From a virus, in IMG/VR virus record IMGVR_UViG_3300021511_000022, positions 1 to 34,340 of that record: DNA of 34,340 nucleotides; one strand, given 5' to 3'. Shown piece by piece: positions 1 to 31,155 of this stretch. Under the pieces are notes generated by a model, which ran no database searches, was not told where the DNA came from, and saw only the letters and a program-made list of their open reading frames with translations. A program made the position numbers and the translations under genes. Numbering within the stretch: the stretch's first letter is position 1; each line of letters begins with the position of its first letter.

Positions 1-171
1 ATCATCCGAAGTTTCAAATCCCTCTTCCTCTACGATTTCTTCTCTTAGCATTTTCAACTCGTCCATCCGCTGTTGCTCATAATCACGAAGATGATCGATG
101 TGTTTGCGGGTATGGGCAATATCCCTTTCAATGTAAGCTTCCTGCTCAAGCAGCTCATTTAGTAGTGTCAT
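1..171 (-). CDS. Hypothetical helical protein, partial (C-terminus outside window)
   Basis: Reading leftward from an ATG at 171, 57 codons stay open to the window edge. The product is highly charged and free of proline and glycine in its first part, with Leu and Glu/Arg spaced as in an alpha-helical coiled coil (starts MTLLNELLEQEAYIERD). Its start lies inside the end of the 155-406 gene, a 17-nt overlap that suggests translational coupling as the last gene of the unit from the 462-490 promoter. I do not recognise a family. Such short helical proteins are common among phage early genes, but no function can be assigned. Confidence 0.6.
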   Translation of the reverse strand, partial: MTLLNELLEQEAYIERDIAHTRKHIDHLRDYEQQRMDELKMLREEIVEEEGFETSDD

Positions 172-406
172 CGAAATCACTCCCAATAGTAACTATTACG
201 GCATCACGTTTAAAATTATAACGCAATTTTACTTGATCGCCGGGATTGGTGTCGCGGAATGAGCAGTAAGAACCAGCCCAACGATGAGCAGGATAATTTA
301 TTATCCAATCCTTACCCTTATAGAAGTGCTCCAGTGCTTCCTGTTCTGTCTTTGGGTTTGCTCCATAGGCAGGTGTCAATGTAACACCATCAAGATCCTC
401 TTTCAT
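155..406 (-). CDS. Hypothetical small protein (83 aa)
   Basis: An 83-residue protein whose ATG at 406 is preceded by a clean Shine-Dalgarno GGAGGACGAAA. It is the first gene behind the near-consensus promoter at 462-490. Visible features are an aromatic and basic middle (WIINYPAHRWAGSY) and an acidic end (FDDTTK). There are no membrane segments, and a single cysteine rules out a zinc site. The end overlaps the start of the next leftward gene by 17 nt. The family is not recognised; position and size suggest an accessory or early phage gene. Confidence 0.65.
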   Translation of the reverse strand: MKEDLDGVTLTPAYGANPKTEQEALEHFYKGKDWIINYPAHRWAGSYCSFRDTNPGDQVKLRYNFKRDAVIVTIGSDFDDTTK

Positions 407-461
407 TTTCGTCCTCCAGTTGATTTAATACGTTGGGTAAGTCCCCTCGTTATCTACCTAC

Positions 462-490
462 ATTATACCATGCGTAGATCAGGGAGTCAA
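462..490 (-). promoter_or_regulatory. Sigma70-type promoter, extended -10
   Basis: On the minus strand TTGACT (485-490) is followed after exactly 17 nt by TATAAT (462-467), with TGG just upstream of the -10, which is an extended -10 element. It shares the surroundings ACTTGAC...ATGGTATAATG with the promoters at 1298-1326 and 4012-4040. It points at the gene starting at 406. Confidence 0.9.
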
Positions 491-520
491 GTACTTGTTT
501 GACACCCTAATCTAAACACG

Positions 521-703
521 TTATATAGTCCTGGCCTTAATAATAAAATATACCTTATGATAAGGCTCCTTAACCTTTATTAAACTATCATCTCCTTTAA
601 GTTTAATAACCGTTTTACCGTCACAGGGCAATAGCCATTCTACATGATCTATATTTATCATAAATTCTTGGTTATCTTCATTTTCTGTTAATTTAATAAA
701 CAT
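521..703 (-). CDS. FlbD-like small protein (60 aa)
   Basis: A 60-residue protein starting MFIKLTENEDNQEF. The pattern (M-I/F-K-L-T, then a short polar turn, then F-x-I/L-N, then I-E/V..., then T-V-I-K-L, then V-K-E) resembles the small FlbD/SwrD family, which in bacteria is tied to flagellar function and in phages occurs as a stand-alone miniprotein of unknown role. The start at 703 has the Shine-Dalgarno AGGAGACTCA and lies 8 nt behind the preceding leftward gene (712-879), so the two are probably co-transcribed. The family call rests on remembered sequence pattern only and could be coincidental at this length. Confidence 0.6.
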   Translation of the reverse strand: MFIKLTENEDNQEFMINIDHVEWLLPCDGKTVIKLKGDDSLIKVKEPYHKVYFIIKARTI

Positions 704-711
704 TGAGTCTC

Positions 712-879
712 CTAATCTAAGATTGAATTTGACAGCATCCTGGTCGGGATAGCAGTGAGTTTAGCTAAACGCAATGATTCAGTAAGCTCTATCATTTCAT
801 CTATGCGCACCCACAACCAATCACAGGTAAAATCTGACTTTTTACCAAACTTTTTCATCCTTTTAGAATAACGTTTCAT
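712..879 (-). CDS. Hypothetical basic miniprotein (55 aa)
   Basis: An ATG at 879 with Shine-Dalgarno TAGGAGTTAAT opens a 55-codon frame ending in TAG at 712-714. The product has a strongly basic N-terminus (MKRYSKRMKKFGKKSD) followed by an amphipathic helix-like stretch around WLWVRIDEMIELTESLRLAK. Its stop and the ribosome-binding site of the 703 gene are adjacent, a typical phage operon arrangement. The basic head could bind nucleic acid, but that is inference. It is too short for most ORF callers. Confidence 0.6.
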   Translation of the reverse strand: MKRYSKRMKKFGKKSDFTCDWLWVRIDEMIELTESLRLAKLTAIPTRMLSNSILD

Positions 880-1048
880 ATTAACTCCTATTTGATTCGA
901 TTTTAGCTCGATCCAGCATCAGGACAGCGGATGACGACATAGGCCACGGTGACACGAGAAGGTATCACGGCTGGTGTCGAGCAGGGCGATGCAGGCTGAC
1001 CTACGCACAGAGGCCGAGAGGCAAGGACGAGCCGTTGAATAAAAATAA

Positions 1049-1249
1049 TTAACGCTTAACATTAGGTAGGTACCTTATTTCAATAATTAATCTTCCATTT
1101 AAAGTCCATTTATTAACAGAGGAAAAAGATTTAGCAGTAAAATTAAAATGCTCAAAGCCATCTAAACACTTAGCATATTCGTGAGCCTTATTAAAGGAGT
1201 TATACATACCAATAATTTTTCCCTTGTAAATTAACACCCAAGCTTTCAT
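1049..1249 (-). CDS. Hypothetical small protein (66 aa)
   Basis: A 66-residue protein (starts MKAWVLIYKGKIIGMY) with a very strong Shine-Dalgarno, AGGAGGACGAA, before the ATG at 1249. The N-terminal pattern of aromatic and aliphatic residues around KGKIIGMYNSFNKAHEYAK suggests a small alpha/beta fold in which a beta-hairpin precedes a helix, as in many phage early proteins. It is the first gene behind the promoter at 1298-1326. Between its stop and the next leftward gene at 879 lie about 170 nt without a clear gene or terminator. No family is recognised. Confidence 0.7.
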   Translation of the reverse strand: MKAWVLIYKGKIIGMYNSFNKAHEYAKCLDGFEHFNFTAKSFSSVNKWTLNGRLIIEIRYLPNVKR

Positions 1250-1297
1250 TTCGTCCTCCTATAATTTTTAGCAGGGGTGATCCCGGCTGTTAACTTC

Positions 1298-1326
1298 ATT
1301 ATACCATACGGGGGATATAGGGTCAA
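1298..1326 (-). promoter_or_regulatory. Sigma70-type promoter, extended -10
   Basis: On the minus strand TTGACC (1321-1326), a 17-nt spacer, then TATAAT (1298-1303) with TGG immediately before it. It is about 50 nt upstream of the start at 1249. The flanks ACTTGAC and TATGGTATAATG match those of the other leftward promoters. Confidence 0.88.
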
Positions 1327-1348
1327 GTGTCCGTTTGATATAAGATTA

Positions 1349-1708
1349 TTAAAGGTTTGGTATAGAGCGATGCAGTTCCGGGTAAATTGGATAGGCGACA
1401 CAATAACCAGCAGTTTTGCACTCAGCACGGTAGCCAAACTGTTGAAGATAAATAGCTAATTTAAAATAAACGCCGCGAATCCAAATATCGCCCTTAACAG
1501 GGGGGAGTTTAAAATCAGCATGGGAACACGCAAAGTAGTCGCCTACCATATTATGATCATCCATCGACATCCCTAAAGAGATAGAGCCTTTTGGAAAACC
1601 GACCATTTTTCCTGGACAAACGCCAGACATGTAGGGAAACCGCTTACGAATTTTGAGAGCCAATTTCATTTCCTGCTGGTCCCAAGTGAATTTTGCTACA
1701 TAACTCAT
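1349..1708 (-). CDS. Hypothetical protein (119 aa)
   Basis: The frame is open up to 1858, but the start at 1708 is chosen because GGGAGGTTGTA precedes that ATG and a promoter lies at 1800-1828, which would make the longer 5' part an untranslated leader of about 85 nt. The 119-residue product starts MSYVAKFTWDQQEMKLA. It carries four cysteines spread out (GVCPGK, FACSHA, AECKTAGYC), not in a tight zinc-ribbon pattern, and no membrane segment. The C-terminal part is rich in aromatic residues. No family is recognised. It is the only gene between this promoter and the one at 1298-1326. Confidence 0.65.
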   Translation of the reverse strand: MSYVAKFTWDQQEMKLALKIRKRFPYMSGVCPGKMVGFPKGSISLGMSMDDHNMVGDYFACSHADFKLPPVKGDIWIRGVYFKLAIYLQQFGYRAECKTAGYCVAYPIYPELHRSIPNL

Positions 1709-1799
1709 TACAACCTCCCGATTGCTACCCAAAGGAAGAGGACGGCAGGCAGTGGATAGCTGCTTTTCGGGAATGACCCTATCCGTCCATAGAAACTCC

Positions 1800-1828
1800 A
1801 TTAAAACACGGGAAGACCCGGAAGTCAA
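1800..1828 (-). promoter_or_regulatory. Sigma70-type promoter
   Basis: On the minus strand TTGACT (1823-1828), a 17-nt spacer, then TTTAAT (1800-1805). The -10 has one mismatch and lacks the TGG extension of its three relatives, but the flanks ACTTGAC and AATGGAG are shared. It serves the gene starting at 1708. Confidence 0.7.
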
Positions 1829-1858
1829 GTGCTTATTTGTACTTGTAATATTAAGCAC

Positions 1859-2874
1859 GGGAAGATAGGGCTAAAACATTTTTCTTCCGGAAAGGCGAAC
1901 GGTTACACGTGGAGAGGATCGTGTCGGATGTGTCGATTTTAAAAAGCGGCAGGGAGCGAGAAGAGCTTCCCGAACGGCTTAATATCCCATAACCCACTTT
2001 CATATTCACAACCAACAACACAGACGTTGTAAGTTTCTAAGAGTTCTTTTTTAATAAAAAATATGTAGTTTTCTTTTCTTTCCGATTTCCCCGTGTCTCC
2101 GGAGTTTTCTTAAAAAAAGACCGACCAGTGTTAGGTTACTTTGTTTTGTTACAAAATCATTTTTCTTTTAAAGAGGAGTTAATTGTGAAGGTCCTATGTT
2201 TTTACAAACATACCAAGGCGGTAGAGATAAGTAGTATAATTCGTAGGCATCTATGTTCTAGGTCGTACTTGCATGACTAGGGCCAACTGGAATATGTGAT
2301 TATTAAAAACGCAGGTTGGCTTCTCTCCGTGCATCTGTGTTAGAAAAAACTACCGGCAGGTATTCACACAAAATCCGGTCCCGGAAATAGTAGACTACTA
2401 GAACACTTCGAAGTTACCTCTAATTCACGTTTATCTTTAACAACATTTCAGACCGCTTTCCTGTGGCCCTGTAGAGCCGTCCCGTACTGAGAAAACTGGC
2501 GACACGTTATCTTCAAATCGGTTTTGAAATACAGTCGCAAGGTCTGGTTGATCAATCTCTGTCGCCTTCTTACGACAATTCATTTAACAAGAACATTAAG
2601 TTCCCGGTTACCGTCCAGAAACAGGCAACTACACAATAAAACAAATTCGATTGACCTTATTCTGGGTTTCACGTGAAGCATGGGCGAACCAATGTCGTTT
2701 TTATATTATTTGTTCTAAATAGCGTTACCTATGGTACCACAAAATTAACCCGGTTATATTATAAATAGTGTTACCTATGATATTACAAAATAGATGCCCA
2801 CGTGTTTCAAATCGGATAAGTTATATTTGCTTAAATTGGTCCGAATTAGACCGGTCGTATTTGTTCAGGCAGGT
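1859..2874. other. About 1 kb with no convincing gene
   Basis: Neither strand has a frame of 60 codons or more here. The two best short candidates are a GTG at 1921 behind GGAGAGGATC (23 residues, to 1992) and a GTG at 2185 behind AGAGGAGTTAATT (31 residues, to 2280). Both have usable ribosome-binding sites but no other support. The segment lies between the leftward terminator at 2875-2906 and the leftward promoter at 1800-1828, so it sits outside the leftward units. It contains the repeat pair at 2716-2793. No tRNA cloverleaf was found by eye. Confidence 0.6.
2716..2793. repeat. Pair of imperfect 32-nt direct repeats, 46 nt apart
   Basis: Copy 1 is at 2716-2747 and copy 2 at 2762-2793. Both read TAAATAG(C/T)GTTACCTATG followed by a diverged centre (GTACC versus ATATT) and ACAAAAT. 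The core GTTACCTATG is identical. The spacing of 46 nt is between four and five helical turns. They could be protein-binding sites (iterons) or a relic of duplication; there are only two copies. Confidence 0.7.
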
Positions 2875-2906
2875 AAAAAAGAACCCGGCCCCAGAACGGG
2901 ACCGGG
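2875..2906 (-). terminator. Rho-independent terminator
   Basis: In leftward transcripts a 9-bp GC stem (CCCGGUCCC with GGGGCCGGG, one G-U pair) closes a 5-nt loop (GUUCU) and is followed by UUC and six U. It lies 10 nt after the stop of the 23-residue membrane protein and ends the 3936-to-2916 unit. Confidence 0.92.
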
Positions 2907-2915
2907 CGGATTTGA

Positions 2916-2987
2916 TTACATCTTCTCAATAAAACCGCAGATCAAATAGATCACGACCACGGCTACTGCTACCATCCAAGGTTTCAT
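2916..2987 (-). CDS. Single-span membrane microprotein (23 aa)
   Basis: An ATG at 2987 with the Shine-Dalgarno GGAGGGTAA opens a 23-codon frame ending in TAA at 2916-2918. Residues 4-20 (WMVAVAVVVIYLICGFI) form one hydrophobic span, followed by a charged tail EKM. It is the last gene before the terminator at 2875-2906 and follows the 2996-3268 gene after 8 nt. The strong ribosome-binding site, exact operon fit and clear transmembrane stretch make it a likely real gene despite its size. Its role is unknown; small phage membrane proteins act, for example, in lysis control or superinfection exclusion, but nothing here decides that. Confidence 0.65.
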   Translation of the reverse strand: MKPWMVAVAVVVIYLICGFIEKM

Positions 2988-2995
2988 TTACCCTC

Positions 2996-3268
2996 CTATA
3001 CTATTAATTTAACTTTTTCTATACAATAGCCATATGCTGAATAATCCCTGTCCCATTTGCTATATGCCCCATAGTAGATTTTGCCATTGATTGTTTTATC
3101 TACTTCCAATTTCCATTTAGCTGTGGGATCATACCTGAATTGATCAAGGAGCATTTTGTAGATATAGCACTTTGCCATGCGTACCGTGCTAAACATACCC
3201 TCCACTGTTTCATCCCCGGGGATGAAACTGTCGTTGTTCCATACTGTTACGATTATGCAGGATTTCAT
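2996..3268 (-). CDS. Hypothetical protein (90 aa)
   Basis: A 90-residue protein starting MKSCIIVTVWNNDSF, with GGAGGCAAGAGC in front of the ATG at 3268. The start overlaps the stop of the preceding gene (ATGA), which shows translational coupling. The product alternates short beta-like segments with a central helix (VRMAKCYIYKMLLDQF) and is rich in Tyr and Trp near the C-terminus. It looks like a small soluble alpha/beta protein with no membrane segment and no metal motif. No family is recognised. Confidence 0.7.
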   Translation of the reverse strand: MKSCIIVTVWNNDSFIPGDETVEGMFSTVRMAKCYIYKMLLDQFRYDPTAKWKLEVDKTINGKIYYGAYSKWDRDYSAYGYCIEKVKLIV

Positions 3269-3399
3269 GCTCTTGCCTCCAAGATTGATTTTGCCAGATA
3301 GATTTTAAACTGCCGCAGTTCCCGTGCCGAAAACCGTACGATCGTATTTGCTACGATTTCCTTTAGCCATTTGATTTCTGTTTGTGTCAGCTTTTTCAT
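3265..3399 (-). CDS. Hypothetical helical miniprotein (44 aa)
   Basis: A 44-codon frame starts at the ATG at 3399 behind the Shine-Dalgarno GGAGGATGAA and ends in a TGA that overlaps the next start (ATGA at 3265-3268). The product begins MKKLTQTEIKWLKEIV and is basic and entirely helix-like, with residues 15-40 amphipathic. It sits between the zinc-ribbon gene and the 90-residue gene, and its ribosome-binding site directly abuts the hairpin at 3409-3430. The coupling on both sides supports it as real. Function is unknown. Confidence 0.68.
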   Translation of the reverse strand: MKKLTQTEIKWLKEIVANTIVRFSARELRQFKIYLAKSILEARA

Positions 3400-3408
3400 T
3401 TCATCCTC

Positions 3409-3430
3409 CAAAAGGGGCCTCTCGGCCCCT
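3409..3430 (-). terminator. Intergenic hairpin, weak terminator or attenuator
   Basis: In leftward transcripts AGGGGCC and GGCCCCU form a perfect 7-bp stem with loop GAGA (3413-3430), followed by only three or four U and then at once by the Shine-Dalgarno GGAGG of the gene at 3399. The short U-run suggests partial termination or RNA stabilisation rather than a full stop, because three more coupled genes follow before a strong terminator. Confidence 0.6.
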
Positions 3431-3438
3431 GGTTTAAT

Positions 3439-3936
3439 TTACGCGATTCCCTCTTCCGCTGCCCGTGCCCGTTTGCTGGCACTCCGCAGGATGTTCCCGC
3501 AGTTCATGCGGACCATTCCGGGATTCCGGCCTTCGTAGCGTTCGAAGAGCCAGTTCTGGATCGAGACCCATTCCCACTCGCCAGCTTGCTTCTTAAACTG
3601 CCGTCCGAGCTTGACCGAAAGACCGTGTTCGATAGGCATCTGAGCGAGAGCCTTTGCTACGGTACGCAGAACCTCACCCTCGTCGAGGCCGCGAAGGGCA
3701 TCTGCCGTTTCGTCCGCAATGTCGTAGGTGTCCCGGCCTGAGGCTGTTACGTCCAAACCCCGGACGTATCGTTCGTGGTCCGGGAAGAGGCGTACCTTCA
3801 GGATAAAACCACAGAAATCGCACGGCTGGTTTAGCCGTTCAACGCCGTTGGTGCCGCCGCAGTTGGGGCAGGTTAAGTGTTTGCTGGTTGGTGTCAGGTC
3901 GCGGGTCAATGCTGTTGCTGTTCTCTTTGCGCTCAT
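3439..3936 (-). CDS. Zinc-ribbon protein of unknown function (165 aa)
   Basis: The frame is open to 4182, but the ATG at 3936 is chosen because GGAGGACAAC precedes it and the promoter at 4012-4040 lies in between. Residues 23-42 carry two CxxC knuckles (CPNC and CDFC, spaced by 12 residues), a typical zinc ribbon. The rest (about 50-165) is alpha-helical and charged, with an aromatic cluster EWEWVSIQNWLFERYEGRNP and an alanine/arginine-rich end. The gene is visibly richer in G+C than its neighbours, which hints at separate origin. It opens a four-gene leftward unit. Nucleic-acid binding is plausible from the ribbon, but no specific family is recognised. Confidence 0.75.
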   Translation of the reverse strand: MSAKRTATALTRDLTPTSKHLTCPNCGGTNGVERLNQPCDFCGFILKVRLFPDHERYVRGLDVTASGRDTYDIADETADALRGLDEGEVLRTVAKALAQMPIEHGLSVKLGRQFKKQAGEWEWVSIQNWLFERYEGRNPGMVRMNCGNILRSASKRARAAEEGIA

Positions 3937-4011
3937 GTTGTCCTCCAAGACGTTGAGTGCAGCCCAATCGGGCAGTATGTGCAGTAAGAGCCATCCCCTT
4001 ACTACACTTCC

Positions 4012-4040
4012 ATTATACCATGCCTTGGTTCTCTTGTCAA
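4012..4040 (-). promoter_or_regulatory. Consensus sigma70 promoter, extended -10
   Basis: On the minus strand TTGACA (4035-4040), a 17-nt spacer, then TATAAT (4012-4017) with TGG directly upstream. Both hexamers match consensus exactly. It shares ACTTGAC and CATGGTATAATG with the other leftward promoters and serves the unit starting at 3936. Confidence 0.93.
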
Positions 4041-4338
4041 GTATCTTTTTTGTATGTGAACCGGGACGGGACGTGAAGGAGCACGGGCGAGTTTGTTGGA
4101 GGCCGTTTTCGTGAGGTGGGTCCCTTCCGGAGGCATGGTGGATTTGCGCAAGACAGAGGCGGTCAAACCGGGACGGTTGCATTTGAAAAGTGGTCCGTTC
4201 TCATTTCGAAAATTTCCGGGAATAATAATTAATTACCAAACCTTCTATCGTTAAGCCCTGATCTTATATTTCATAATATCGACCTTCTAGCCTTTGTATT
4301 TTTAAACTTCTCCGTGTCTTCTATTTGTACTTAAATAT
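4041..4338. other. Divergent intergenic region
   Basis: About 300 nt separate the leftward promoter at 4012-4040 from the rightward promoter at 4339-4367. The left half is G+C-rich and the right half AT-rich. I see no gene on either strand, no terminator and no clear operator palindrome. It is the natural place for regulators that switch between the two directions of transcription, but nothing visible proves it. Confidence 0.5.
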
Positions 4339-4367
4339 TTGACACAACCTGTCGGATGTGCTATAAT
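4339..4367 (+). promoter_or_regulatory. Consensus sigma70 promoter for the structural module
   Basis: TTGACA (4339-4344), a 17-nt spacer, then TATAAT (4362-4367), both exact consensus. The start of the terminase small subunit follows about 30 nt after the -10. Unlike the leftward promoters it lacks TGG before the -10 and continues as TATAATAAA, as does the promoter at 31152-31181. Confidence 0.92.
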
Positions 4368-4397
4368 AAAGGTAAAATAAAAGGGCTATATTAAAAG

Positions 4398-4823
4398 ATG
4401 ATCGAAGTTAATTGGGAACATATTAAGGAGATTTGGGAACAAGGTGCAGAAGACCTATCTACGGTTGCTCAGAAATATCAAGTCTCCTTAACAGATATTA
4501 CTATTAAAGCACAAGCTGAGGGATGGGACGACCGAGGTTCCAATGTGCCATTATGTGCTGACCTGTCTGGCCCTGTCCTTGACGAAAAGCAGGTGTTGCT
4601 GGCCCACAAAACTGATCTGGGCCGCTTGCGCCTGTTGGCCGCAACTGTGATGGAGTCCCTACAATACGAAACCGAAGCGGCCCCCATGCTGAAAGCATTA
4701 GAAAAACTTGCGCGTATTTACACGCAGATAATCCCGCTGGAACGCAAAACTTTTGGTCTGGATGCTGATTCATCTACTATACCTGATGGCATTATCATTA
4801 ACGTTGGAGGCAATAATGAATAG
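4398..4823 (+). CDS. terS: Terminase small subunit (probable)
   Basis: A 141-residue protein starting MIEVNWEHIKEIWEQG. Residues 7-37 form a helix-turn-helix of the type seen in phage small terminases (an acidic first helix, then LSTVAQKYQVSLTDITIKAQ, then W). The remainder holds helices suited to oligomerisation (about 70-115) and an acidic C-terminus. The small subunit binds the packaging site and recruits the large subunit. Its place just before the large-subunit gene and first behind the promoter at 4339-4367 supports the call. The ribosome-binding site is weak (AAAGGG, distant). Family assignment is by pattern and position only. Confidence 0.75.
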   Translation: MIEVNWEHIKEIWEQGAEDLSTVAQKYQVSLTDITIKAQAEGWDDRGSNVPLCADLSGPVLDEKQVLLAHKTDLGRLRLLAATVMESLQYETEAAPMLKALEKLARIYTQIIPLERKTFGLDADSSTIPDGIIINVGGNNE

Positions 4824-4848
4824 TTTATGGGATAGGGCTGCAGCCTGA
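4816..4848 (+). other. Orphan start: 10-codon frame in phase with terL
   Basis: An ATG at 4816 with an excellent Shine-Dalgarno (TGGAGG, 5 nt away) opens MNSLWDRAAA and then hits TGA at 4846. It is in the same reading phase as the terminase large subunit at 5086; the interval 4846-5085 is 240 nt, a multiple of three. It may be the original start of the large subunit, cut off by insertion of the AP2-like ORF. This is inference; it could also be a chance match inside the end of terS. Confidence 0.4.
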
Positions 4849-4850
4849 AA

Positions 4851-5102
4851 GTGAGTAACCTGCTCATTTCTCATAACACATCTGGTATTAAAGGCATTTA
4901 TTGGAATAAAGAGAAAAAGGGTAAATGGCGGGTACAAATTACAGTGAATAGAAAACATAAATATCTTAGCAGACATGATGATTTCACTGAAGCTGTTGCC
5001 CATAGATTTGCAGCTGAGCAATGCCTAAACTGGGGCGATTGTGATACTAATAGTATCTCCGGTAATTATCTTAAGGAGGTATTAAGTGGGAAGTCAGCTT
5101 AA
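4851..5102 (+). CDS. AP2-like DNA-binding domain protein, probable homing-endonuclease remnant
   Basis: An 83-residue frame starting at GTG 4851. Residues 8-60 match the AP2-like domain that follows the HNH domain in many phage HNH-AP2 homing endonucleases: NTSGIKGIYWNKEKKGKW, then VQITVNRKHKYLSRHDDFTEA, then an alanine-rich helix. No HNH motif precedes it; an in-frame stop at 4833 closes the frame just upstream, no ATG is available and no good ribosome-binding site is seen. It therefore looks like a truncated relic, or a free-standing AP2 domain. It sits between terS and terL and overlaps the terL start by 17 nt, supplying its Shine-Dalgarno (AAGGAGGT at 5073-5080). Free-standing homing endonucleases often sit beside terminase genes. 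Confidence 0.68.
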   Translation: MSNLLISHNTSGIKGIYWNKEKKGKWRVQITVNRKHKYLSRHDDFTEAVAHRFAAEQCLNWGDCDTNSISGNYLKEVLSGKSA

Positions 5103-6582
5103 CATAGAAACAGATTTAGCCGGTTTTTCGCCCCGTCAGCTAAAAGCCATAGAGGCTTTAGATGATCCAATTGTGCGATGGATCTTGTACGGCGGGGCAC
5201 TTTGACTTGGTGGCGGTAAAAGTTACCTGTTAAGATGGGCTGCAGTCAGGCAGCTTATAAAAATCGTTGGGCAATGGGGTGTTAAAAAACCTGTTGGGAT
5301 GATAGCTTGTGAAAATTACCCAGCACTTAAGGACCGACAAATACAAAAAATTGCAACAGAATTTCCACCATGGTTAGGGAAATCACATAATGACCATAAA
5401 GACTATGGTAGGTGTTATGTATTAAATCCAAAATTTGGCGGGGGCGTAATAGTTTTAAGGAACCTGGACGATCCCTCAAAATATCAATCAGCTGAGTTTG
5501 TTTTTATTTTTGTGGACGAATTAACGAAAAACAAATATGAAGTTTTTACTTTTCTGCGATCACGCTTGCGCTGCCCCGGAGTGCCGACCAACGAATTGAA
5601 ATTTATAGGTGCTACCAATCCGGGCGGTATAGGCCATGGCTGGTGCAAAGCTTTTTGGATTGATAAAATATTTGCTGATGAATGGGAAGGATTTGAAAAC
5701 GAATTTAAATATATACCTTCCAAAGCAACTGATAATCCCCATCTTGATTCTGGATATTACAAAACTCTTGATACTCTGCCGGAAGGACTACGAGAAGCGT
5801 TCAGGGATGGTTCATGGGATATCTTTATCGGACAAGCTTTTCCTGAATTTAATAGAAAAATACACGTGTTACCGGACGAAACCCCTGTTCCTATCGGTGC
5901 GCCCTGCTATATGACCTTGGATTGGGGTTTTGGAAAACCGTTTTCTATTGGCTGGTGGTATATAGACAACGAAGGCCGTATAATCAGATTTGCTGAATGG
6001 TATGGGTGGAATGGGACCCCGAATGAAGGGCTAAGAATGACCGATTCGGAAATAGCCGAAGGGATCATAGCCAGGGAAGTAGGGTTTGAAGTAAACGGAC
6101 TATCAAGAAATTTCATTCGTATATCGGGTAACGATATATTTAACAAAAAGCCAGACTATAAAGGTGGAGGACAAGGAAAATCTACTGCTGAAGTATTTTC
6201 AGAATACGGCCTGCATTTTAGCCCCGGTGACTCTCTTCGCGTACTTAAGATAAGGCAATTTAGAGAAAGATTAAAGGTTCGTGAAGACAACCAACCCATG
6301 CTGTACGTTTACGAAAACTGTGAACAGTTTATTCGGACTATACCAAATATGACAATGGACGAAAAAACATATGAGGATATAGATACGAAGGGTGAGGATC
6401 ATGTATATGATGAAGTTTGCAATTTATGTATGGCTCGTCCAATAACTCTTGAAGCACCAAGGGTAAAAACATTAGAAGTAGATGAACGATTAAACAGCCT
6501 TGAGAAAAGTCACACTGATCCTTATGATAGATTTGAAGATGAATCGGTTCGTGACTTTGGTTTAATTTCAACTATGCAGTGA
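5086..6582 (+). CDS. terL: Terminase large subunit, interrupted by an in-frame TGA in the Walker A motif
   Basis: The DNA-packaging ATPase/nuclease. A GTG at 5086 behind AAGGAGGT gives 498 codons, the usual large-terminase length. Visible are the N-terminal FSPRQLKAIEALDDP, the P-loop region at residues 36-46, Walker B FVFIFVDE (D144, E145), the coupling motif GATNPGG near 176, and the RNase H-like nuclease beginning LDWGFG (D279) with a later acidic HVYDEV segment. Codon 40 (5203-5205) is TGA: the P-loop reads GGAL-stop-LGGGKS. Removing six bases (TGACTT or CTTTGA) restores the normal GGALGGGKS. The part after the stop is intact with no other disruption; its first ATG (5299) would give a protein without Walker A. 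It may be a defective copy, a sequencing error, or a recoded or processed gene. Confidence 0.9.
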
Positions 6583-22248: not shown

Positions 22249-25200
22249 TTGATGGACCCTAAAAAGTTTGAAGAAATAATGGCACAAAGGCGGGGAGCAT
22301 CCGTTGGTAAACGTATTGTTGATAATATGGAGCCGGTTGATAGTATAGGACCTATTAACGAGTTTTCCCGTGGGATTGGTCGTGGTGCCATAAAATCCGC
22401 TGCTGCTCTTGGTCCCGGTGTGATTGATTTTGCATATAACACAGCGGGTAGGGCTGGTGAAGCTTTATCTAAAAAAGTTGTTAGGGCTATGGGAGTCGAT
22501 GTACCAGACTATGTAAAACCGGAACCATCTTCATTTAGTCTTCTTGGTGTTAGTCGTAAAATTTTAGAAAAAGCTGATAAAGTTGTAGAATCGCCTACTT
22601 TAAAGGGATCAAAGTCTCTTGAAAAGGGGTGGCGTGAAGGAGTAAAGGATATTAATTGGTGGGCCGGTAATCTTGGTGAAATGGCTCCTGCAACTTTATC
22701 CATTATGGGGATAGCTAAAAAAATTATAGAAAAAGAGGGTAAAAAACATTTGGCTATATTAGCCAGTAACTCTGCTAGTAAATCCGCTAAGAAAAAAGCG
22801 AAAATAGAAATAGGAAAAATTTCAGCTAAGGCTGCTATAGGACCGTCTGTTGCATTGGAAGGATCAATGCAACATGATGAGTACCGTAAGTGGGAAAAGA
22901 AAAACCCTGAAGATGCAACCGCAATGGGTGATATTATAGCCACTATGTTTGGTGCTGCTTCCGGTGTTCTGGAAGGTGCCGGTATAGGCGGTATGATGAT
23001 GGGGCCATTTATTAAAAAATTTGGGAAGGAAGCTGGAACTAAAGCGGCTTCCGGTTTTTGGAAAGAATTTGTTAAAGCTGCTCCTAAAAATATTCTTATT
23101 GAAGGTGGGACGGAAGGTGCACAGCAATATATTCAAAATATAGGAAAAAAGATAGGTTATGCTCCAGATACTGAATTAACTGAGGGTATCATGGAATCAC
23201 TAATACTTGGTGGTGCCATGGGTGGGGCATTTAGTACTTTTGAAGCTGGTCAGGCTAAAGCACCAAGAAATCAGACTGAAAAAGATATGATGACTATACT
23301 CAAATCGCGTAAGAGATTAAGTATAGTAAAAGGAGATATTGCAAAACAGCAAGAAATTTTGGATAATACTGATCCGGAAAGCAAAGAATACGAAAAAGCA
23401 AAAAATAAACTTGAAAAAGGTATTATTGAACTTGGTAAACAAGAGGATATAGTAGGAAAAGTATCAAAAAGGTTAAAGACGGGAACAATAAAAGAGGAAG
23501 GAGTTTCTATTGCCCCTACAGATGAAGAAGCTTTTGGCACTACTATTGATCCCACTTTAACTATTAATGAAATAGCAGAAGGAATAGACAGTGGTGAAAT
23601 TACCCCTGATGATTGGGATAAGGCTCCTAAAGAAAAGTATACTGAGGAAGAAGTTGAAGTAGTTGAGCAACATGTAAGTGATATAAGAAATCAACAAGAT
23701 ATAGATACTCTTGCCAGTGGAAAAGAAGTTTCCCCGATAGTTGAGCAGGAGGTTATGGATGGTACCGGTAAAGAGTCAATTTGGTCTACTCTACCTGAAA
23801 ATTTTACTGATCAGGAGGCTGTAGATTCGTTTCAACAAGATTTAGTTACTTTTGGTGGGGATAAAGCCGCCGCCGTATCCTTATCTAAAAAACCCATTTC
23901 AGAACCTGTTCAGCAATTGGCTGATTTGTTTGGAGTAAGGATAGTTAATACTTCTATAAAGGCAAAGCCAGGTGGAATCAACCCAAATGGAATGATTCAT
24001 CCCAATAATCCTAATTTAATTTATATGAAGGACACTGCCAGTAGACCTGAAATATGGTTACTAGGCCATGAATTTAGTCATTCTTTAGGGAAAAACAATC
24101 CAGAGGCATACGACACGTTGATGAAAACAGCGATTCCTATGTTTAAACCATCCGAATTTGTTGCATATCAAAAAGCATTATCCAAAAAGATGGGTAGTAA
24201 AGTTGATAAAAAAACAGTGGCTAAAGAAATGTTAGGTGATTTTGTTGGCGATAAATTTGTTGATAAAAATTTTTGGTCTAAAGTACATAAAGAGAACCCG
24301 TCCCGATTTAAAGAAATAATCAACAGTCTTCGTGAATTTATAAGCAAAATAACAGCTAACTTTACTGGTGTATCTCCTGAGTCTAATAAATTTTTTAATG
24401 ATATACTTTCCCTTGAAAATACTCTTGTAGATGTACTTAATGAACATGTAGGGTACACCGGTGCTGTAGAAAAAGTTGTTCAAAGCAAAACACCTACTGG
24501 TGATATTGTTGATCTTAATAGAGGGAATAAGCATCTTACCCATATTCCTATTGGTGAGAATGGGCAGATTCTTATGCGAGAGGACAAGGATACTATTTAT
24601 ATAGAGCGATTTGCCCGTGCTGGTGCCCGTACTACGCAAGGAATGACCAATACTCTTACTGGTGAAGGAAAAGGTGGTCCTACAGCTGTACTTAGTGATA
24701 TAAAAGATTATGCTAAGGAAAAAGGGAAAAAGATTGTTGCTAATGTAGAGAACAATCAATACTTATCCAAGCAAGGTTTTAAGCAGACTGACAGTACCAT
24801 GACATGGGAAGCTATCAAGGAGGGTACTGGAGCGGCTCCCGTTGCAGGCGGCACGGTATCCGAGGCCACAGGTACGGCCCAGGATAAGAAGAGCAAGGAC
24901 AAGGCCGCGAGAATAGCTCGTGAGATGGAAGACAAAGAGCTTCGTGAAGCCAGACAAGAACTAAGGGGTCTTGATAAAAAGATACAAGACGAATTAGATG
25001 TGGCTAAAACTGGTACTAAAGAAGAAATTATCTTTGCCAAAGAACAACATAATAAATTCGTCAATCGTAAAAAGGAACTTGAGGCCAAAGTAACTGACAT
25101 AGTTACCAAGAGGGAAAAAGATGATCAAAAAACAGGGAAACAAGTATCTGGTGATGGACAGCCGGGGAAGAAAAAGGTTGGGGACGCACCCAAACCTACA

Positions 25201-28200
25201 AAAAGCAAGAAAGCAGATCGCGGCGATAGAGATAAACAAGGCAAAAAGAAGAAGGAAGTAAAGCCTAAAACTCTTAAAGAAAAGGTAACGGAAGTAAAGC
25301 AGGAGGCCGATTATAAAGAAATAGGAGGCGTTACCGCTGAATTTAAACGAATTACTGATTCTCTTAATAAGTCTGGTCAGCACGGGGACCCGATAGCTTT
25401 TGCTGATGCCGTTATAGAAGCAGGTATTAAAATAAATGTAAATGAAGAAGAGTTGGCTTATCAACATGCATTTAAAGTACATATGATGGGGGAGGAAAAT
25501 GTCCCCACTGCTAAAAAGGCCAAGAAACGTAAAACTAAGTATACCAAAGAAGAACAAATAAAGTTGAATGTTCTTACGGCCATGCTTAATGAAAGTAACA
25601 GGTATACAGGTATAGATCAAACCCTTACTGAAAAAGAAGTAAAAGAAGAGATAGATAGAAGGGTCAGGGACCATAAAGAGGAGACGTCATTTAACGCTGA
25701 AATATCTAATGAACCAAAATCTCTTACTGATGAATTACAATTTAGTTTAGAAAATAAAATAAAATTTGCCAAAAAAAGAGCTAATATTGTTGCTAAGGAA
25801 GCATCACAGAATAGCTCTAAGTATACTATTGAGCAGTATAAAAAATTAGCTAATAATATTATATATGAAATTGTTAGTAACCCTAAGTATTCATATATAG
25901 ATTATGATGCTAAGATGCGTAATAATATTGATAATTATGCTCCGGGTACGGATGAATTTATTAAAAAACTTAGTAATAAATTTGGATTTTCAGAAGTATT
26001 AAGGGTACCATTACGATCTAATCTTAAAAAAGTAAAAGAGGCATATAAACATGTTTATGGTAATTCTGCTACTTTAAGAAGAATAGTAAGGGGTGCCCCT
26101 AATTATAAACGTACAGCTACAGGGGTTGATGAATTACAATTTAGTCTTGCTCCTAAAGTTGGTTTAATTAAAGAATATACTGAATCCCCAAGTGATATTG
26201 TAAAAAAAATAAAAAATATATGGAAACCTACTACAAATTTAAATAATGCCAGATGGCTTACTTATGATGGTACATTTTTAAGTGACCCTAAAAATACTAC
26301 TAATGCTATTTCTCATAGTAATATATCAAAATATATCAAATTAAAAAATGGGAATAAAATACCAGTTAATGATTTACAAAATGGATGGAAACATTTTGTA
26401 GATGCCACTGGTTCAATAAGAATACATACTTTAAAAAATGGTATTATTCATGCAGTGTCGTTGGATAGACAACCAACAAAGCGCCAATGGGCAATGCTAG
26501 TTAAGAATACTGATATATCTGAACCATTAAGCGTTGAAATTAGTCTTTTACCCGATGATATATCATATCAACATAATGTAGATATACCATTAAATAAACT
26601 TAGGCCATTAATAGAAGAAGTATTAATTGAATCAAATAAATATTTAAAAGATGAAGGATTTAGTCGTAATTTCAACCCGAATGAATTGCAGTTTAATTTA
26701 GATAAAAGGGTAGATGCTAATGAGGCTTTTGTCGCTCCGATTAAGCAAAAGATAAAGGACCTTAAGCTCGATACAAAATTACCAAAAAAACTATCCACTA
26801 ACCAGTGGAATGATACTTTTACAAAGTTAACTCGTAAAGGCAAACTTAACCCGGAAGAATACGAATTTTCTTATCTTCCTGAATGGCTAGCCGAGCAGGA
26901 AGGCGATGTTTCCCGTGAGGATGTGCTTAATTACCTTACCGAAAACGCACCTAAAGTTGTAACACATAGAAAAAATGATATTGTTTCTACTGCTAATGCT
27001 GAAGTAAGAGACTTGTTTTTTGAGGGTTTTAGTAATGATGATAAACCTTTAAAAAGAGCAGTATATGTATCAGTAATGATACTAAAAAGAAAATTTAAAG
27101 ATGAAAATCTTGATATAATTAAAGGTAAATCAAAAGAAATAGCTGACAGTTTGGTTGATCGTTTTGCAAAGGGAAGGGGTACAGAGAAACAAACCGCTGA
27201 ACAAAAGTTAAATGCATTTAGGGGTGATGAACTAGGTGGTATGGTGTACGATGAAATAGTACACCGATATAAAACCGAAGAAGAACATAATATTGAAGAA
27301 CAACAACAAATAAGGGCCATCCGTGCTGAAGTATATCAAGAGGCTAAAGATGAAAATTTAAGTGATCAGGATGCAACTGATTTAGCGCAGGAAGCGGTAG
27401 AAAGATGGTACAATGATGAACATGGCGGATACTATGAACCACCTGACTATAGCTACGATAATATGGTTTTGCCTGGGGGACTTGGCAACTATAATGAAAC
27501 TTTAATATACTATAATTCCCCTAAAGGAGAGTATAAAGGAACTGGTCAATTACATTGGGGCAAAGACAATATTCTAGTTCATACGCGCTATGATGATCAT
27601 GCGGTTTCAGGAAGTAACGAAAAAGCTTTGATGTTATATGAGAATCAGTCTGATTGGCAAGCCGATATTTCTAAAAAGGGAGAGCTTAAATCCCTTACAG
27701 CTGAACAAGCGTTAAATGAATTGATCCCTAAAATTAAAAAAGATATTATTGCTTATGATAAACTTAAAACAGTAACTCCACTAATAAGTTATTTTACATC
27801 AAAGAATAAAGGAACAATAGTAAAAACTGTATTAGAAGATATGGTGAATCGTAGAAGTGTTACGATGTTTAAGGAGCGCAGTTATAATACATATAATGAT
27901 TATATCCCATCTGATGATGTTAGAAAAGCAATTATTGATGCGTATACAGAAAATAAAAGTAGTCATGAAGCAAAGAAATATAGTAATTTAACCAATAAAG
28001 AAATTATTAACACTGCTAGAGATGTCATGCAAATGGCAAAGCAAGTATCAATAACACTTAAACATTTTAATAATAGGTTTAACCGCGCTGTTGAAAATTT
28101 CCGTAATGAAAATCGATTTGCTGATTATAGGGAGGATGCAAAGGATCTTCCTTTCAACATGACTTTGGGCTATCCCAATGCCCCTTATAAGAAAACATGG

Positions 28201-31155
28201 CCATTGCTTGCGTTTAAAAATGGAATGATTGAAGCATATAATCGCGGCGATGATTATGTAGCTTGGCCTTCTACCGGCGATCAGATAGCAGAAATAGAAG
28301 GATGGGGTAACTACCAATTTAAAGGGATCATTGACAATATCACTAAAACCATGCCCCGGCAAGTTGATGAATTTGTTAAAAGGTATGGCGGTAAAGTAGA
28401 AAAGATCGATATAGAAGGCGGCGGCAAAGTAAACGCTGTTAAAATAACTCCGCAACTTAAGAAGCTTATTGAAGATAGGCAAGTGCCGCAATTTAGCCTT
28501 GACGAACCGATAGATCCTAAGGACCCAAATCCAGAAGTGCAACAGCAAATTGAAAAGCACATGCAATCTGAGAAAAAATCTTTGGGAGAAAAAATAAAAG
28601 ATAGAATATCAGCCCTATGGAAAAGTTCTACATCTATGATTCCTCAGATCCGTCCGGGGGAATTGGGCTATTTTAAAGATAGGATTCGCCTAGCCAAGGA
28701 AGTAGATAAATTTGGTTCTCAACAAGCATTTTTTAGGATTTATGCCGCCATAGGCAAATTGTCTAACGATGAGAGACAAGTGTTTACTATGAACCTTGTT
28801 CTCAACGATATGCTCAATGATACTATACCAAATGAAGACGGGGTTGCTATCCTTAAGGACGGTCATTTACCATTTAAGTACAAGACGGTTGATCAGGTAA
28901 GGGCAAGTTTACGCCATTTTAGGGAACAGGCAAAAAAATCTCCCCGCGTGATGAATGCACTAGCCAGAAGAAGAAAATCTATGTTAAAAATTCAGGGGGA
29001 ATTAATAGATGCCGGTTTCCTTAAAGAAGAATTAAGAGGCAATGATTCATATTTTCATCATGAAACTCTGCAGCATATGGTAGAGGGTGATGGTTATTTG
29101 TTTGGTATGCACCGGGGTGCAGGTGGCAAAAGTCTTAAAATGACTAAAGATAGGGGTTCTGATATAAGTGCTTATAGTCTTGATTATATTACTTCTGAAT
29201 TTGCTGTGTTGTCTGATGCTATTGCTACTTTAGAATTAAACAAAATAAAAAAACAAATTAAAGCGGTATATGATATAACTCCGAAATTAGAAAAAAAGGC
29301 TAATGGTGGAAAACTAATTCCTCTTAAAGGTTATAAAATTTTACACCCTGCACAGCTTCCCGGATGGGGCGCGACTCCTAAATTTCCTGATGTAATTGCT
29401 GCTAATATATTGGAAAAAGCAAAAATTGATCCAAAGGTAAAGGAGGAGATGCAAATAGCCTCTGGTGTTGACGAAAAATGGATTGTCCCTGAAAAAATAG
29501 CCGATGCCATGAGCACTGTTCGTGAAATAAGTCACAAAGAGATTTATAGTAAAATATCGGAATCCTTTACTCAAGCATGGAAAAAATGGACATTAATTAA
29601 TCCGTTTAGGATTATAAGATATAATATAAATAATATGTCTGGCGATGTTGACATTGCTCTTGCTTATGATTGGCGCATTATGCAATACTTACCACAGGCC
29701 ATGAAAGATATAGCCGGTGATATCAATACCATGGGCATGAAACTTCCTTTTAATATGCAGAGGTTTGGTAGTCATATGACTTCTGAAATGAAAGCCGAAA
29801 TGAAGGAAGCCCATAGATTGGGTGTTATCGGCGCCGGGTTCGTTATGCATGAAGTAACGGATATTTCTAGTGAATTTGAGGCAATTATGCGTGGACCTCA
29901 GGGTAATTTTGCTTCTAAATTTGGGCAAAAATGGTGGCAAGGGTCAAAAGACATAACTAACTACCGTGAAAACTTACTGAGATTAGCTTCTTATCGTTAT
30001 TTTAAAGACCGTATAAAATCAGGAGAAAAGAACATATACGCTGCTTCAAACCCCACTGAAATAGATGAAATTCGTAATGTCAATGAAAAGGCCGCTAAAT
30101 TATCGCGTGAGCTTATTGGTGATTATGGCAGGTTGTCAGAAGGTGGGGAATGGATGCGCAAGCATATGATTCCTTTTTATTCGTGGATGGAAATCAATGC
30201 CCCAAGATATGTTCGTATGATGCGAAACCTTTCTCATGAAGGAAAATCAAGAGGGAGGGCCGTTGCATCTAGTTTAACTTGGAAAACGTCTGTGCTTGGT
30301 GCAAAGTTTATGTTGTTTACTGCCATGGTAACGGCATGGAACAATCTTTTATTCGGGGATGATGAAGATGAATTAAAAGGATATCAAAAAAGACAGATGC
30401 ATTTATTATTTGGTAGAAGGCAAGATGGTTCTATTAGATATATACCTGTATCGGGTGCTTTTCGTGATGCCCTTTCGTGGTTTGGTGGGGATGATATATA
30501 CTATGATATTAAAGATATAACATCTGGTAAATCTACTATAGGAGAAAAGGCAAAAGAAATGGGGTTGGCCCCTGCATGGAAATTTTATCACTCTTCTCGC
30601 CCTATTTTTAGATCCGCTGGTGAAGCTATATCTGGTTTTACTATGTTTCCTACTAATAGTCCAAGGCCTATACGTGATAAAATGGATTATGTATCCAAAA
30701 CCTTTTCTATGGAGCTTGCTTATAGATTTGCTGCTGGTAAGCCTACCCGTGGTCTGGCAAAAGAATTTCAAAGCAAATTGACCAAAAATGTTGATCCTGG
30801 TGAGTTGGCTTACCATGAAATAAGAAATAAAGTTAGGGCATATAATAAAAAAGTTGGCCGTAAAGAGTTTAAATCTCAGCCTACTAATATATCTAATGCT
30901 CTATATTATTATAAAAAGTCAATTCAGTACGGAGACTTGGCCGCTGCCGAAAAATACTGGGAAAAATACCTTGAGATGGGCGGTTCTTTAAAAGGACTAC
31001 AATCAAGTATACGGTTAACTCGTCCTACCGGGGGCTTACTTAAAAAACATAGAAGTGGTTTTTATAAAACTTTATCTGATAACGATAAAATTCTATTAAA
31101 TAAAGCATCAAAGTGGTATAGACAAATATATTCAAATTTGTATAATAAGCATTGA
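22249..31155 (+). CDS. Giant polyvalent internal-virion-type protein (2968 aa)
   Basis: At 2968 residues it takes up a quarter of the window. Segments in order: Gly/Ala-rich hydrophobic stretches (about 225-260 and 312-332) that could act in membranes; a zincin-like metallopeptidase domain (about 555-690) with HEFSH at 607-611 and possible third ligands near E660; a GNAT-like segment (about 760-845, ending YLSKQGF); a Lys-rich linker (about 875-1030); modules separated by the motif QFSL/QFNL at 1164, 1297, 1481 and 2081; a module with STNQW...LPEWLAEQ (about 1510-1570) and ENQSDWQ at 1798-1804, seen in many giant phage proteins; and from about 2130 a helical C-terminus like LPD-type domains, with a hydrophobic span at about 2680-2703. 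This is the architecture of 'polyvalent' proteins (Iyer, Burroughs and Aravind). Position suggests a T7 gp16-like ejected protein; it lacks a recognisable lytic transglycosylase. Confidence 0.85.
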   Translation: MMDPKKFEEIMAQRRGASVGKRIVDNMEPVDSIGPINEFSRGIGRGAIKSAAALGPGVIDFAYNTAGRAGEALSKKVVRAMGVDVPDYVKPEPSSFSLLGVSRKILEKADKVVESPTLKGSKSLEKGWREGVKDINWWAGNLGEMAPATLSIMGIAKKIIEKEGKKHLAILASNSASKSAKKKAKIEIGKISAKAAIGPSVALEGSMQHDEYRKWEKKNPEDATAMGDIIATMFGAASGVLEGAGIGGMMMGPFIKKFGKEAGTKAASGFWKEFVKAAPKNILIEGGTEGAQQYIQNIGKKIGYAPDTELTEGIMESLILGGAMGGAFSTFEAGQAKAPRNQTEKDMMTILKSRKRLSIVKGDIAKQQEILDNTDPESKEYEKAKNKLEKGIIELGKQEDIVGKVSKRLKTGTIKEEGVSIAPTDEEAFGTTIDPTLTINEIAEGIDSGEITPDDWDKAPKEKYTEEEVEVVEQHVSDIRNQQDIDTLASGKEVSPIVEQEVMDGTGKESIWSTLPENFTDQEAVDSFQQDLVTFGGDKAAAVSLSKKPISEPVQQLADLFGVRIVNTSIKAKPGGINPNGMIHPNNPNLIYMKDTASRPEIWLLGHEFSHSLGKNNPEAYDTLMKTAIPMFKPSEFVAYQKALSKKMGSKVDKKTVAKEMLGDFVGDKFVDKNFWSKVHKENPSRFKEIINSLREFISKITANFTGVSPESNKFFNDILSLENTLVDVLNEHVGYTGAVEKVVQSKTPTGDIVDLNRGNKHLTHIPIGENGQILMREDKDTIYIERFARAGARTTQGMTNTLTGEGKGGPTAVLSDIKDYAKEKGKKIVANVENNQYLSKQGFKQTDSTMTWEAIKEGTGAAPVAGGTVSEATGTAQDKKSKDKAARIAREMEDKELREARQELRGLDKKIQDELDVAKTGTKEEIIFAKEQHNKFVNRKKELEAKVTDIVTKREKDDQKTGKQVSGDGQPGKKKVGDAPKPTKSKKADRGDRDKQGKKKKEVKPKTLKEKVTEVKQEADYKEIGGVTAEFKRITDSLNKSGQHGDPIAFADAVIEAGIKINVNEEELAYQHAFKVHMMGEENVPTAKKAKKRKTKYTKEEQIKLNVLTAMLNESNRYTGIDQTLTEKEVKEEIDRRVRDHKEETSFNAEISNEPKSLTDELQFSLENKIKFAKKRANIVAKEASQNSSKYTIEQYKKLANNIIYEIVSNPKYSYIDYDAKMRNNIDNYAPGTDEFIKKLSNKFGFSEVLRVPLRSNLKKVKEAYKHVYGNSATLRRIVRGAPNYKRTATGVDELQFSLAPKVGLIKEYTESPSDIVKKIKNIWKPTTNLNNARWLTYDGTFLSDPKNTTNAISHSNISKYIKLKNGNKIPVNDLQNGWKHFVDATGSIRIHTLKNGIIHAVSLDRQPTKRQWAMLVKNTDISEPLSVEISLLPDDISYQHNVDIPLNKLRPLIEEVLIESNKYLKDEGFSRNFNPNELQFNLDKRVDANEAFVAPIKQKIKDLKLDTKLPKKLSTNQWNDTFTKLTRKGKLNPEEYEFSYLPEWLAEQEGDVSREDVLNYLTENAPKVVTHRKNDIVSTANAEVRDLFFEGFSNDDKPLKRAVYVSVMILKRKFKDENLDIIKGKSKEIADSLVDRFAKGRGTEKQTAEQKLNAFRGDELGGMVYDEIVHRYKTEEEHNIEEQQQIRAIRAEVYQEAKDENLSDQDATDLAQEAVERWYNDEHGGYYEPPDYSYDNMVLPGGLGNYNETLIYYNSPKGEYKGTGQLHWGKDNILVHTRYDDHAVSGSNEKALMLYENQSDWQADISKKGELKSLTAEQALNELIPKIKKDIIAYDKLKTVTPLISYFTSKNKGTIVKTVLEDMVNRRSVTMFKERSYNTYNDYIPSDDVRKAIIDAYTENKSSHEAKKYSNLTNKEIINTARDVMQMAKQVSITLKHFNNRFNRAVENFRNENRFADYREDAKDLPFNMTLGYPNAPYKKTWPLLAFKNGMIEAYNRGDDYVAWPSTGDQIAEIEGWGNYQFKGIIDNITKTMPRQVDEFVKRYGGKVEKIDIEGGGKVNAVKITPQLKKLIEDRQVPQFSLDEPIDPKDPNPEVQQQIEKHMQSEKKSLGEKIKDRISALWKSSTSMIPQIRPGELGYFKDRIRLAKEVDKFGSQQAFFRIYAAIGKLSNDERQVFTMNLVLNDMLNDTIPNEDGVAILKDGHLPFKYKTVDQVRASLRHFREQAKKSPRVMNALARRRKSMLKIQGELIDAGFLKEELRGNDSYFHHETLQHMVEGDGYLFGMHRGAGGKSLKMTKDRGSDISAYSLDYITSEFAVLSDAIATLELNKIKKQIKAVYDITPKLEKKANGGKLIPLKGYKILHPAQLPGWGATPKFPDVIAANILEKAKIDPKVKEEMQIASGVDEKWIVPEKIADAMSTVREISHKEIYSKISESFTQAWKKWTLINPFRIIRYNINNMSGDVDIALAYDWRIMQYLPQAMKDIAGDINTMGMKLPFNMQRFGSHMTSEMKAEMKEAHRLGVIGAGFVMHEVTDISSEFEAIMRGPQGNFASKFGQKWWQGSKDITNYRENLLRLASYRYFKDRIKSGEKNIYAASNPTEIDEIRNVNEKAAKLSRELIGDYGRLSEGGEWMRKHMIPFYSWMEINAPRYVRMMRNLSHEGKSRGRAVASSLTWKTSVLGAKFMLFTAMVTAWNNLLFGDDEDELKGYQKRQMHLLFGRRQDGSIRYIPVSGAFRDALSWFGGDDIYYDIKDITSGKSTIGEKAKEMGLAPAWKFYHSSRPIFRSAGEAISGFTMFPTNSPRPIRDKMDYVSKTFSMELAYRFAAGKPTRGLAKEFQSKLTKNVDPGELAYHEIRNKVRAYNKKVGRKEFKSQPTNISNALYYYKKSIQYGDLAAAEKYWEKYLEMGGSLKGLQSSIRLTRPTGGLLKKHRSGFYKTLSDNDKILLNKASKWYRQIYSNLYNKH

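Follow-up and report, generated by a model that had tools for sequence, protein, structure and literature searches.

A putative translational stop-hop in the P-loop codons of a phage terminase gene that adjoins an endonuclease remnant

Very few natural examples of translational bypassing are known. In the constructs known so far, stop-hops that lack stimulators are inefficient. In prfB (RF2), a programmed +1 site consists of CTT TGA C preceded by a G-rich stretch, and the TGAC context is known there. In phage T4 gene 60/mobA, a stop codon directly follows the take-off codon and the landing codon matches it; an HNH homing endonuclease gene, defective in T4, adjoins the interrupted gene, and the insert, which is missing from relatives, has been proposed as a protection against cutting (PMC5009743, PMC3014915). 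Regulation of stand-alone homing endonucleases by RNA structures has also been described (PMC3014915). The mitochondria of Magnusiomyces capitatus carry byp elements, short inserts in coding sequences that the ribosome skips, with 81 reported instances, and a possible bypass has been suggested in the terminase of Streptomyces phage Hau3 (PMC5009743). A natural in-frame stop-hop was not known to the same review in 2016 (PMC5009743). No later report of one was found in the open-access literature searched; subscription papers lay mostly outside this search, and an unseen report is possible.

Here, an in-frame TGA in the terminase large subunit gene (terL) of a phage sequence was analyzed, the whole stretch (IMG/VR virus record IMGVR_UViG_3300021511_000022, 34,340 nt) being termed the window. 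From the comparisons described below, terL is probably expressed by short translational bypassing (a stop-hop), with an insert linked to the history of an HNH-AP2 endonuclease. An earlier note, made from the window alone, had the site right and overlooked both the Leu-TGA-Leu architecture of the putative hop and the endonuclease remnant just upstream. The features of the locus are collected in Table 1.

Table 1. Features of the terS-terL region of the window, with the evidence for each.
Feature	Position	Strand	Basis
terS, terminase small subunit	4398..4823	+	PHROG 1206 E 1.8e-05; directly 5' of the endonuclease cassette
Three-way-junction RNA, putative int-alpA class	4825..4876	+	descriptor match; outer helix TTATGGGA/TCTCATAA, 8/8 pairs
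HNH-AP2 homing endonuclease remnant (AP2 C-terminal part, HNH missing)	4863..5102	+	PHROG 99 E 8.6e-16
Ribosome-binding site of terL, AAGGAGG	5073..5079	+	sequence
terL, terminase large subunit	5086..6582	+	Pfam Terminase_3 E 3.5e-06; PHROG 979 E 4e-12; interrupted by TGA 5203-5205
G-rich GGCGGGG, candidate internal Shine-Dalgarno-like element	5191..5197	+	2 nt 5' of the proposed take-off codon
Proposed take-off codon CTT (Leu 39)	5200..5202	+	CTY in 4/4 TGA alleles
In-frame TGA, context TGAC	5203..5205	+	sequence
Proposed landing codon CTT	5206..5208	+	first CTY past take-off, any frame, in 4/4 alleles

The gene call from GTG 5086 with a good ribosome-binding site, as originally proposed, is borne out by the AAGGAGG motif and by the Pfam and PHROG matches. 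In this frame the window reads TTG TAC GGC GGG GCA CTT TGA CTT GGT GGC GGT AAA AGT, i.e., LYGGAL-stop-LGGGKS, with a CTT codon on either side of the TGA. The TGA is followed by 458 open codons up to the stop TGA 6580-6582, and the claim that terL contains no other disruption likewise stands. An AlphaFold model of the TerL of L024, the closest uninterrupted relative, has a pLDDT of 63 overall and is low at the loop; it shows a strand (34-38), a loop and a helix (44-64) around GGALGGGKS, and its best Foldseek matches are the D6E, Sf6 and HK97 terminases. The TGA is therefore placed by this model within the Walker A loop of TerL, where the sequence had already located it. The same model, of low confidence, and the Pfam and PHROG matches all assign the product to the terminase large subunit class (an ATPase with a Walker A motif and a nuclease domain). 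Elsewhere in the window, an ORF of 2968 residues (22249-31155), occupying about one quarter of its length, lacks a Pfam match, as do two minus-strand ORFs (1349-1858 and 3439-4182); the first ∼4.4 kb (1-4397) contain no clear long plus-strand genes.

The P-loop was read in 65 terL relatives (labelled L with a number). Most carried an uninterrupted Walker A motif. In a few (L006, L007, L038 and L065) the Ser of GKS is immediately preceded by a sequence with the terminal residues ...HN. These sequences were read as inteins and are inserted in the same loop, some four codons beyond the position of the TGA. The P-loop codons of terL attract mobile elements of several kinds. At the TGA site itself, the insert is too small to be an intron or intein.

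The earlier note had suggested comparing related phages at this site, and the comparison revealed a TGA after the same Leu codon in three further IMG/VR phage contigs from different metagenomes. The junction reads CTC TGA CTT in L026 (the same contig as L004 and L022), CTC TGAC CTT in L013 (identical to L002) and CTC TGAAAAA CTT in L029 (identical to L105). Their TerL proteins are 74-76% identical to that of the window. The net length of the insert is 6 nt in the window and in L026, 7 nt in L013 and 10 nt in L029. The 6-nt insertion described at the outset thus holds for the window but is one form among several, and a slippage duplication, proposed as its origin, fails to explain the 7- and 10-nt forms. 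All of the sequences are metagenome contigs, known here from assemblies alone, as an assembly or sequencing error would have it; the same codon junction, however, recurs in four divergent contigs with differing insert sequences, so that such an error, one of three explanations offered originally, is ruled out in practice and scarcely credible.

Additional TGA-containing P-loops in terL were sought by pattern scans of IMG/VR (the window's own record left out), allowing an insert gap of 0-12 or 3-30 nt between Leu-type codons. None were detected beyond L013, L026 and L029, the other matches not being terL, and a looser pattern scan of IMG/VR likewise yielded no additional terL case. INPHARED contained no close DNA relatives of the window, the best protein relatives there being 32-38% identical, and just two distant relatives (45%) were found in prokaryote genomes.

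The four TGA alleles fall within a well-supported clade of nine distinct terL genes, the other five of which encode an uninterrupted GGALGGGKS. The Leu codon of the five insert-free alleles is TTG, TTG, TTA, TTG and CTC. The four TGA alleles all have a CTY codon at the proposed take-off site and CTT at the proposed landing site. In all four the TGA stands immediately 3' of the take-off codon, three of them in the context TGAC, and the distance from take-off to the first downstream CTY is +6, +6, +7 and +10. The gap length therefore varies across all frames while CTY-TGA and CTT are kept, which matches the prediction for a bypassed gap. The locus accordingly has the elements expected of a bypass site: a gap of 6-10 nt with a stop, lying within one ORF with conserved coding on both sides, a stop directly after the take-off codon, and take-off and landing codons suited to the same tRNA, as judged from the codons alone. 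These gap and codon patterns derive from few events, namely four alleles.

The possible decoding routes were compared across the four alleles. Readthrough of the TGA gives a long product solely in the window and L026, and a +1 shift solely in L013 and L029; -1 and +2 shifts give a long product in none of the four. A hop from the CTY before the TGA to the first downstream CTY gives both a long product and exactly GGALGGGKS in all four. Since each of the other routes fails in some or all of the alleles, only the hop fits them all, and it would be the simplest single mechanism to cover them. Among the three explanations offered in the earlier note, recoding over the extra bases is thus the best supported.

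The stop codon usage of the window bears on the simplest form of readthrough. The 28 plus-strand ORFs taken as genes terminate in TAA (15), TGA (8) and TAG (5); because 8 of the 28 end in TGA, this codon is an ordinary and genuine stop in the window genome. It is consequently most improbable that the host reads TGA as an amino acid through reassignment or suppression; reassignment had already been judged unlikely. The frame does remain open past the TGA in the window and L026, but the sequence beyond it is in another frame in L013 and L029, and no tRNA gene is present in the window.

Alternatively, the clade might combine two kinds of recoding, UGA readthrough in the 6-nt alleles and a prfB-like +1 shift at CTY UGA in the 7- and 10-nt alleles, with the products GGAL-X-LGGGKS (6 nt), GGAL-D-LGGGKS (7 nt) and GGAL-EK-LGGGKS (10 nt). 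Each group of alleles has a long open frame by the route named for it, and the CTT TGA C of the window, following a G-rich stretch, resembles the RF2 frameshift site. Nonetheless, the +1 frame of the window and of L026 meets a stop after 9 codons, unlike that of a prfB-type site, and two mechanisms would be required within one clade. Moreover, the length of GGALGGGKS does not vary among 11 uninterrupted relatives, so that the loop cannot accommodate the two or three residues that these routes would add. Such a mixture is considered improbable. Translation starting within the gap was also rejected: L013 and L029 have an ATG in the GGGK frame, but a start there would drop the first glycine of the Walker A motif, and the window and L026 would gain nothing from it.

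In the proposed stop-hop, the ribosome would arrive at CTT 5200-5202 (Leu), so that TGA occupies its A site. The peptidyl-tRNA-Leu would leave its codon, pass the TGA and re-pair with CTT 5206-5208, and decoding would restart at GGT 5209. The nine bases CTT-TGA-CTT would thereby yield one leucine and the Walker A sequence GGALGGGKS, and the predicted junction peptide of the window allele, with its single Leu, is WILYGGALGGGK. In the relatives, the skipping of 6, 7 or 10 nt would give the same product. Both the hop and its efficiency are inferred.

No shared hairpin or conserved stem-loop was detected by RNA folding around the site, and no special nascent peptide was apparent near the TGA, where the N-terminal peptide resembles that of the insert-free alleles. 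The lack of these stimulators, which are specific to T4, argues against membership of the T4 subtype but leaves a hop as such unaffected. The GGCGGGG stretch upstream of the take-off codon is present in the insert-free relatives too and may simply represent conserved Gly-Gly codons. Since these codons are common to all relatives and no hairpin is shared, neither can be presented as a stimulator.

The terL gene of the window carries no sign of relaxed constraint, as far as its substitutions can indicate. Relative to outgroups, 18 amino-acid changes were counted on the window branch and 19 on that of its insert-free sister L024, and the differences between the two at codon positions 1, 2 and 3 are 17, 9 and 57%; dS values (NG86/YN00) were saturated in all pairs but one. 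Together with the recurrence of the TGA, this renders a lone defective copy, as suggested in the earlier note, unlikely. Unchanged constraint would exclude only an old death of the gene, and a recently dead gene would look alike.

The region between terS and terL was examined further within the clade, leaving out L013, whose contig begins at terL, and L028, for which too little upstream sequence is available. In L026 and L027 an intact gene occupies this position, encoding a free-standing HNH-AP2 homing endonuclease, HNH followed by AP2 (PHROG 99, E about 1e-61; Pfam HNH_3 above and AP2 below the cut-off). The remnant in the window is 57.7% identical to residues 103-172 of the full L026 protein, and in L029 the endonuclease is reduced to short N- and C-terminal pieces. 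No trace of an endonuclease was found in searches of L024, L025 and L030. The cassette thus accompanies all three TGA alleles for which upstream sequence is available, versus one of four alleles without TGA (Fisher, about 0.11), the exception being L027, in which the endonuclease is intact and the insert absent. By itself, this association is weak. The AP2 remnant, used as a query in IMG/VR, gave no match, and in two annotated phages with the same endonuclease family no annotated terL adjoined the gene within the stretch viewed. L027 also contains, 5' of terS, a second HNH-endonuclease-like gene (710-1042, in ORF 524-1090), which shares 33% identity with the L026 HNH-AP2 protein.

A three-way-junction RNA with compensating helices precedes the endonuclease or its remnant in the window, L026, L027 and L029, and none was found at the other terL loci examined. 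The RNA was identified by a descriptor scan, RNAalifold having missed the second hairpin when a covariance model was built. The L029 copy matches the int-alpA RNA of Rfam (RF02996) with 43.6 bits, versus a gathering cut-off of 35.8, and the window copy lies under the Rfam reporting level. By analogy with other stand-alone homing endonucleases, this RNA may regulate the endonuclease. On the minus strand of the window, a second int-alpA-like RNA (1727-1789; 30.5 bits, below the 35.8 cut-off) has no recognised endonuclease alongside.

A local replacement tract is evident between the sisters L013 (with TGA) and L027 (without TGA). They are about 98-100% identical from ∼800 nt of aligned terL onwards, whereas the initial ∼560 nt, surrounding the P-loop, reach 63-83% DNA identity, a fall from about 99% to about 70% overall. 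Because the two diverge sharply only near the 5' end of terL, TGA and TGA-free alleles appear to have been exchanged between otherwise near-identical phages, the pattern expected from homing or other local recombination. The tree requires at least three gains or losses of the TGA, and the TGA alleles are not grouped by either half of the gene. Descent, repeated origin and exchange, and with them one origin followed by movement or several origins, cannot be told apart on the present tree.

The same observations could be explained by dead alleles, in which cleavage of the P-loop codons by the endonuclease is followed by erroneous repair and short, stop-bearing inserts remain, the genomes being recently damaged and either non-viable or dependent on a helper. 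The cassette beside every TGA allele with upstream sequence, the variable insert length and the fact that recent death leaves constraint unchanged are all in keeping with this explanation. Random repair, however, is not expected to produce inserts that each open with a Leu codon and TGA and close before a Leu codon. The decay of the endonuclease in the window and L029 argues that the allele has persisted, terL is otherwise undisrupted, and the insert occurs in four of nine clade members. Dead alleles are accordingly regarded as unlikely.

Under the stop-hop, the insert probably arose or was retained in connection with the HNH-AP2 endonuclease adjoining terL. By splitting a putative conserved target in the P-loop codons, it may shield terL from cutting, as proposed for T4 mobA/gene 60. 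This link to the endonuclease is weaker than the hop itself. More tentatively, and with some doubt, the phages of this clade could be seen as carrying a natural stop-hop: within the P-loop of terL, a minimal mobile bypass insert (Leu-TGA-N0-4-Leu) whose spread or retention went together with that of the HNH-AP2 endonuclease and the structured RNA.

Bypassing itself is already known, and what would be new is a short natural stop-hop in terL. If true, the T4 mobA/gene 60 arrangement would have arisen a second time, independently, in a far shorter form and with several natural gap lengths, and bypass inserts beside homing endonucleases would be a repeated outcome. A gap of 6-10 nt in an essential phage gene, available in four versions, is small enough for full testing in reporters, and a hop that proceeds with neither the hairpin nor the nascent peptide of T4 gene 60 would show how little bypassing requires. 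For annotation, the case cautions against declaring a phage gene dead on account of a stop.

Among the known systems, the site shares with prfB a CTT TGA C preceded by a G-rich stretch, and differs from it in the early stop of its own +1 frame. Synthetic stop-hops are constructs in E. coli reporters, and the 7- and 10-nt alleles exceed their simple nine-nucleotide form. The byp elements resemble the inserts as short sequences skipped within coding regions, but they occur in many copies per genome and are handled by mitochondrial ribosomes with relaxed decoding, in contrast to one site in one phage gene here. Hau3, compared by the description in the review only, likewise concerns a terminase gene, although its possible bypass is perhaps tied to UUA decoding rather than to a harmful insert (PMC5009743). 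The closest likeness is to T4 gene 60/mobA, with its phage gene, its stop directly after the take-off codon, its matched landing codon, its insert missing from relatives and proposed as protection, and its adjoining HNH homing endonuclease, defective in T4 and found here intact in L026 and as remnants in the window and L029. T4 gene 60 differs in its gap of 50 nt (versus 6-10 nt), in its Gly rather than Leu codons, and in its take-off hairpin and special nascent peptide, neither of which was found here; the present gene is terL, represented by four alleles with different gap lengths.
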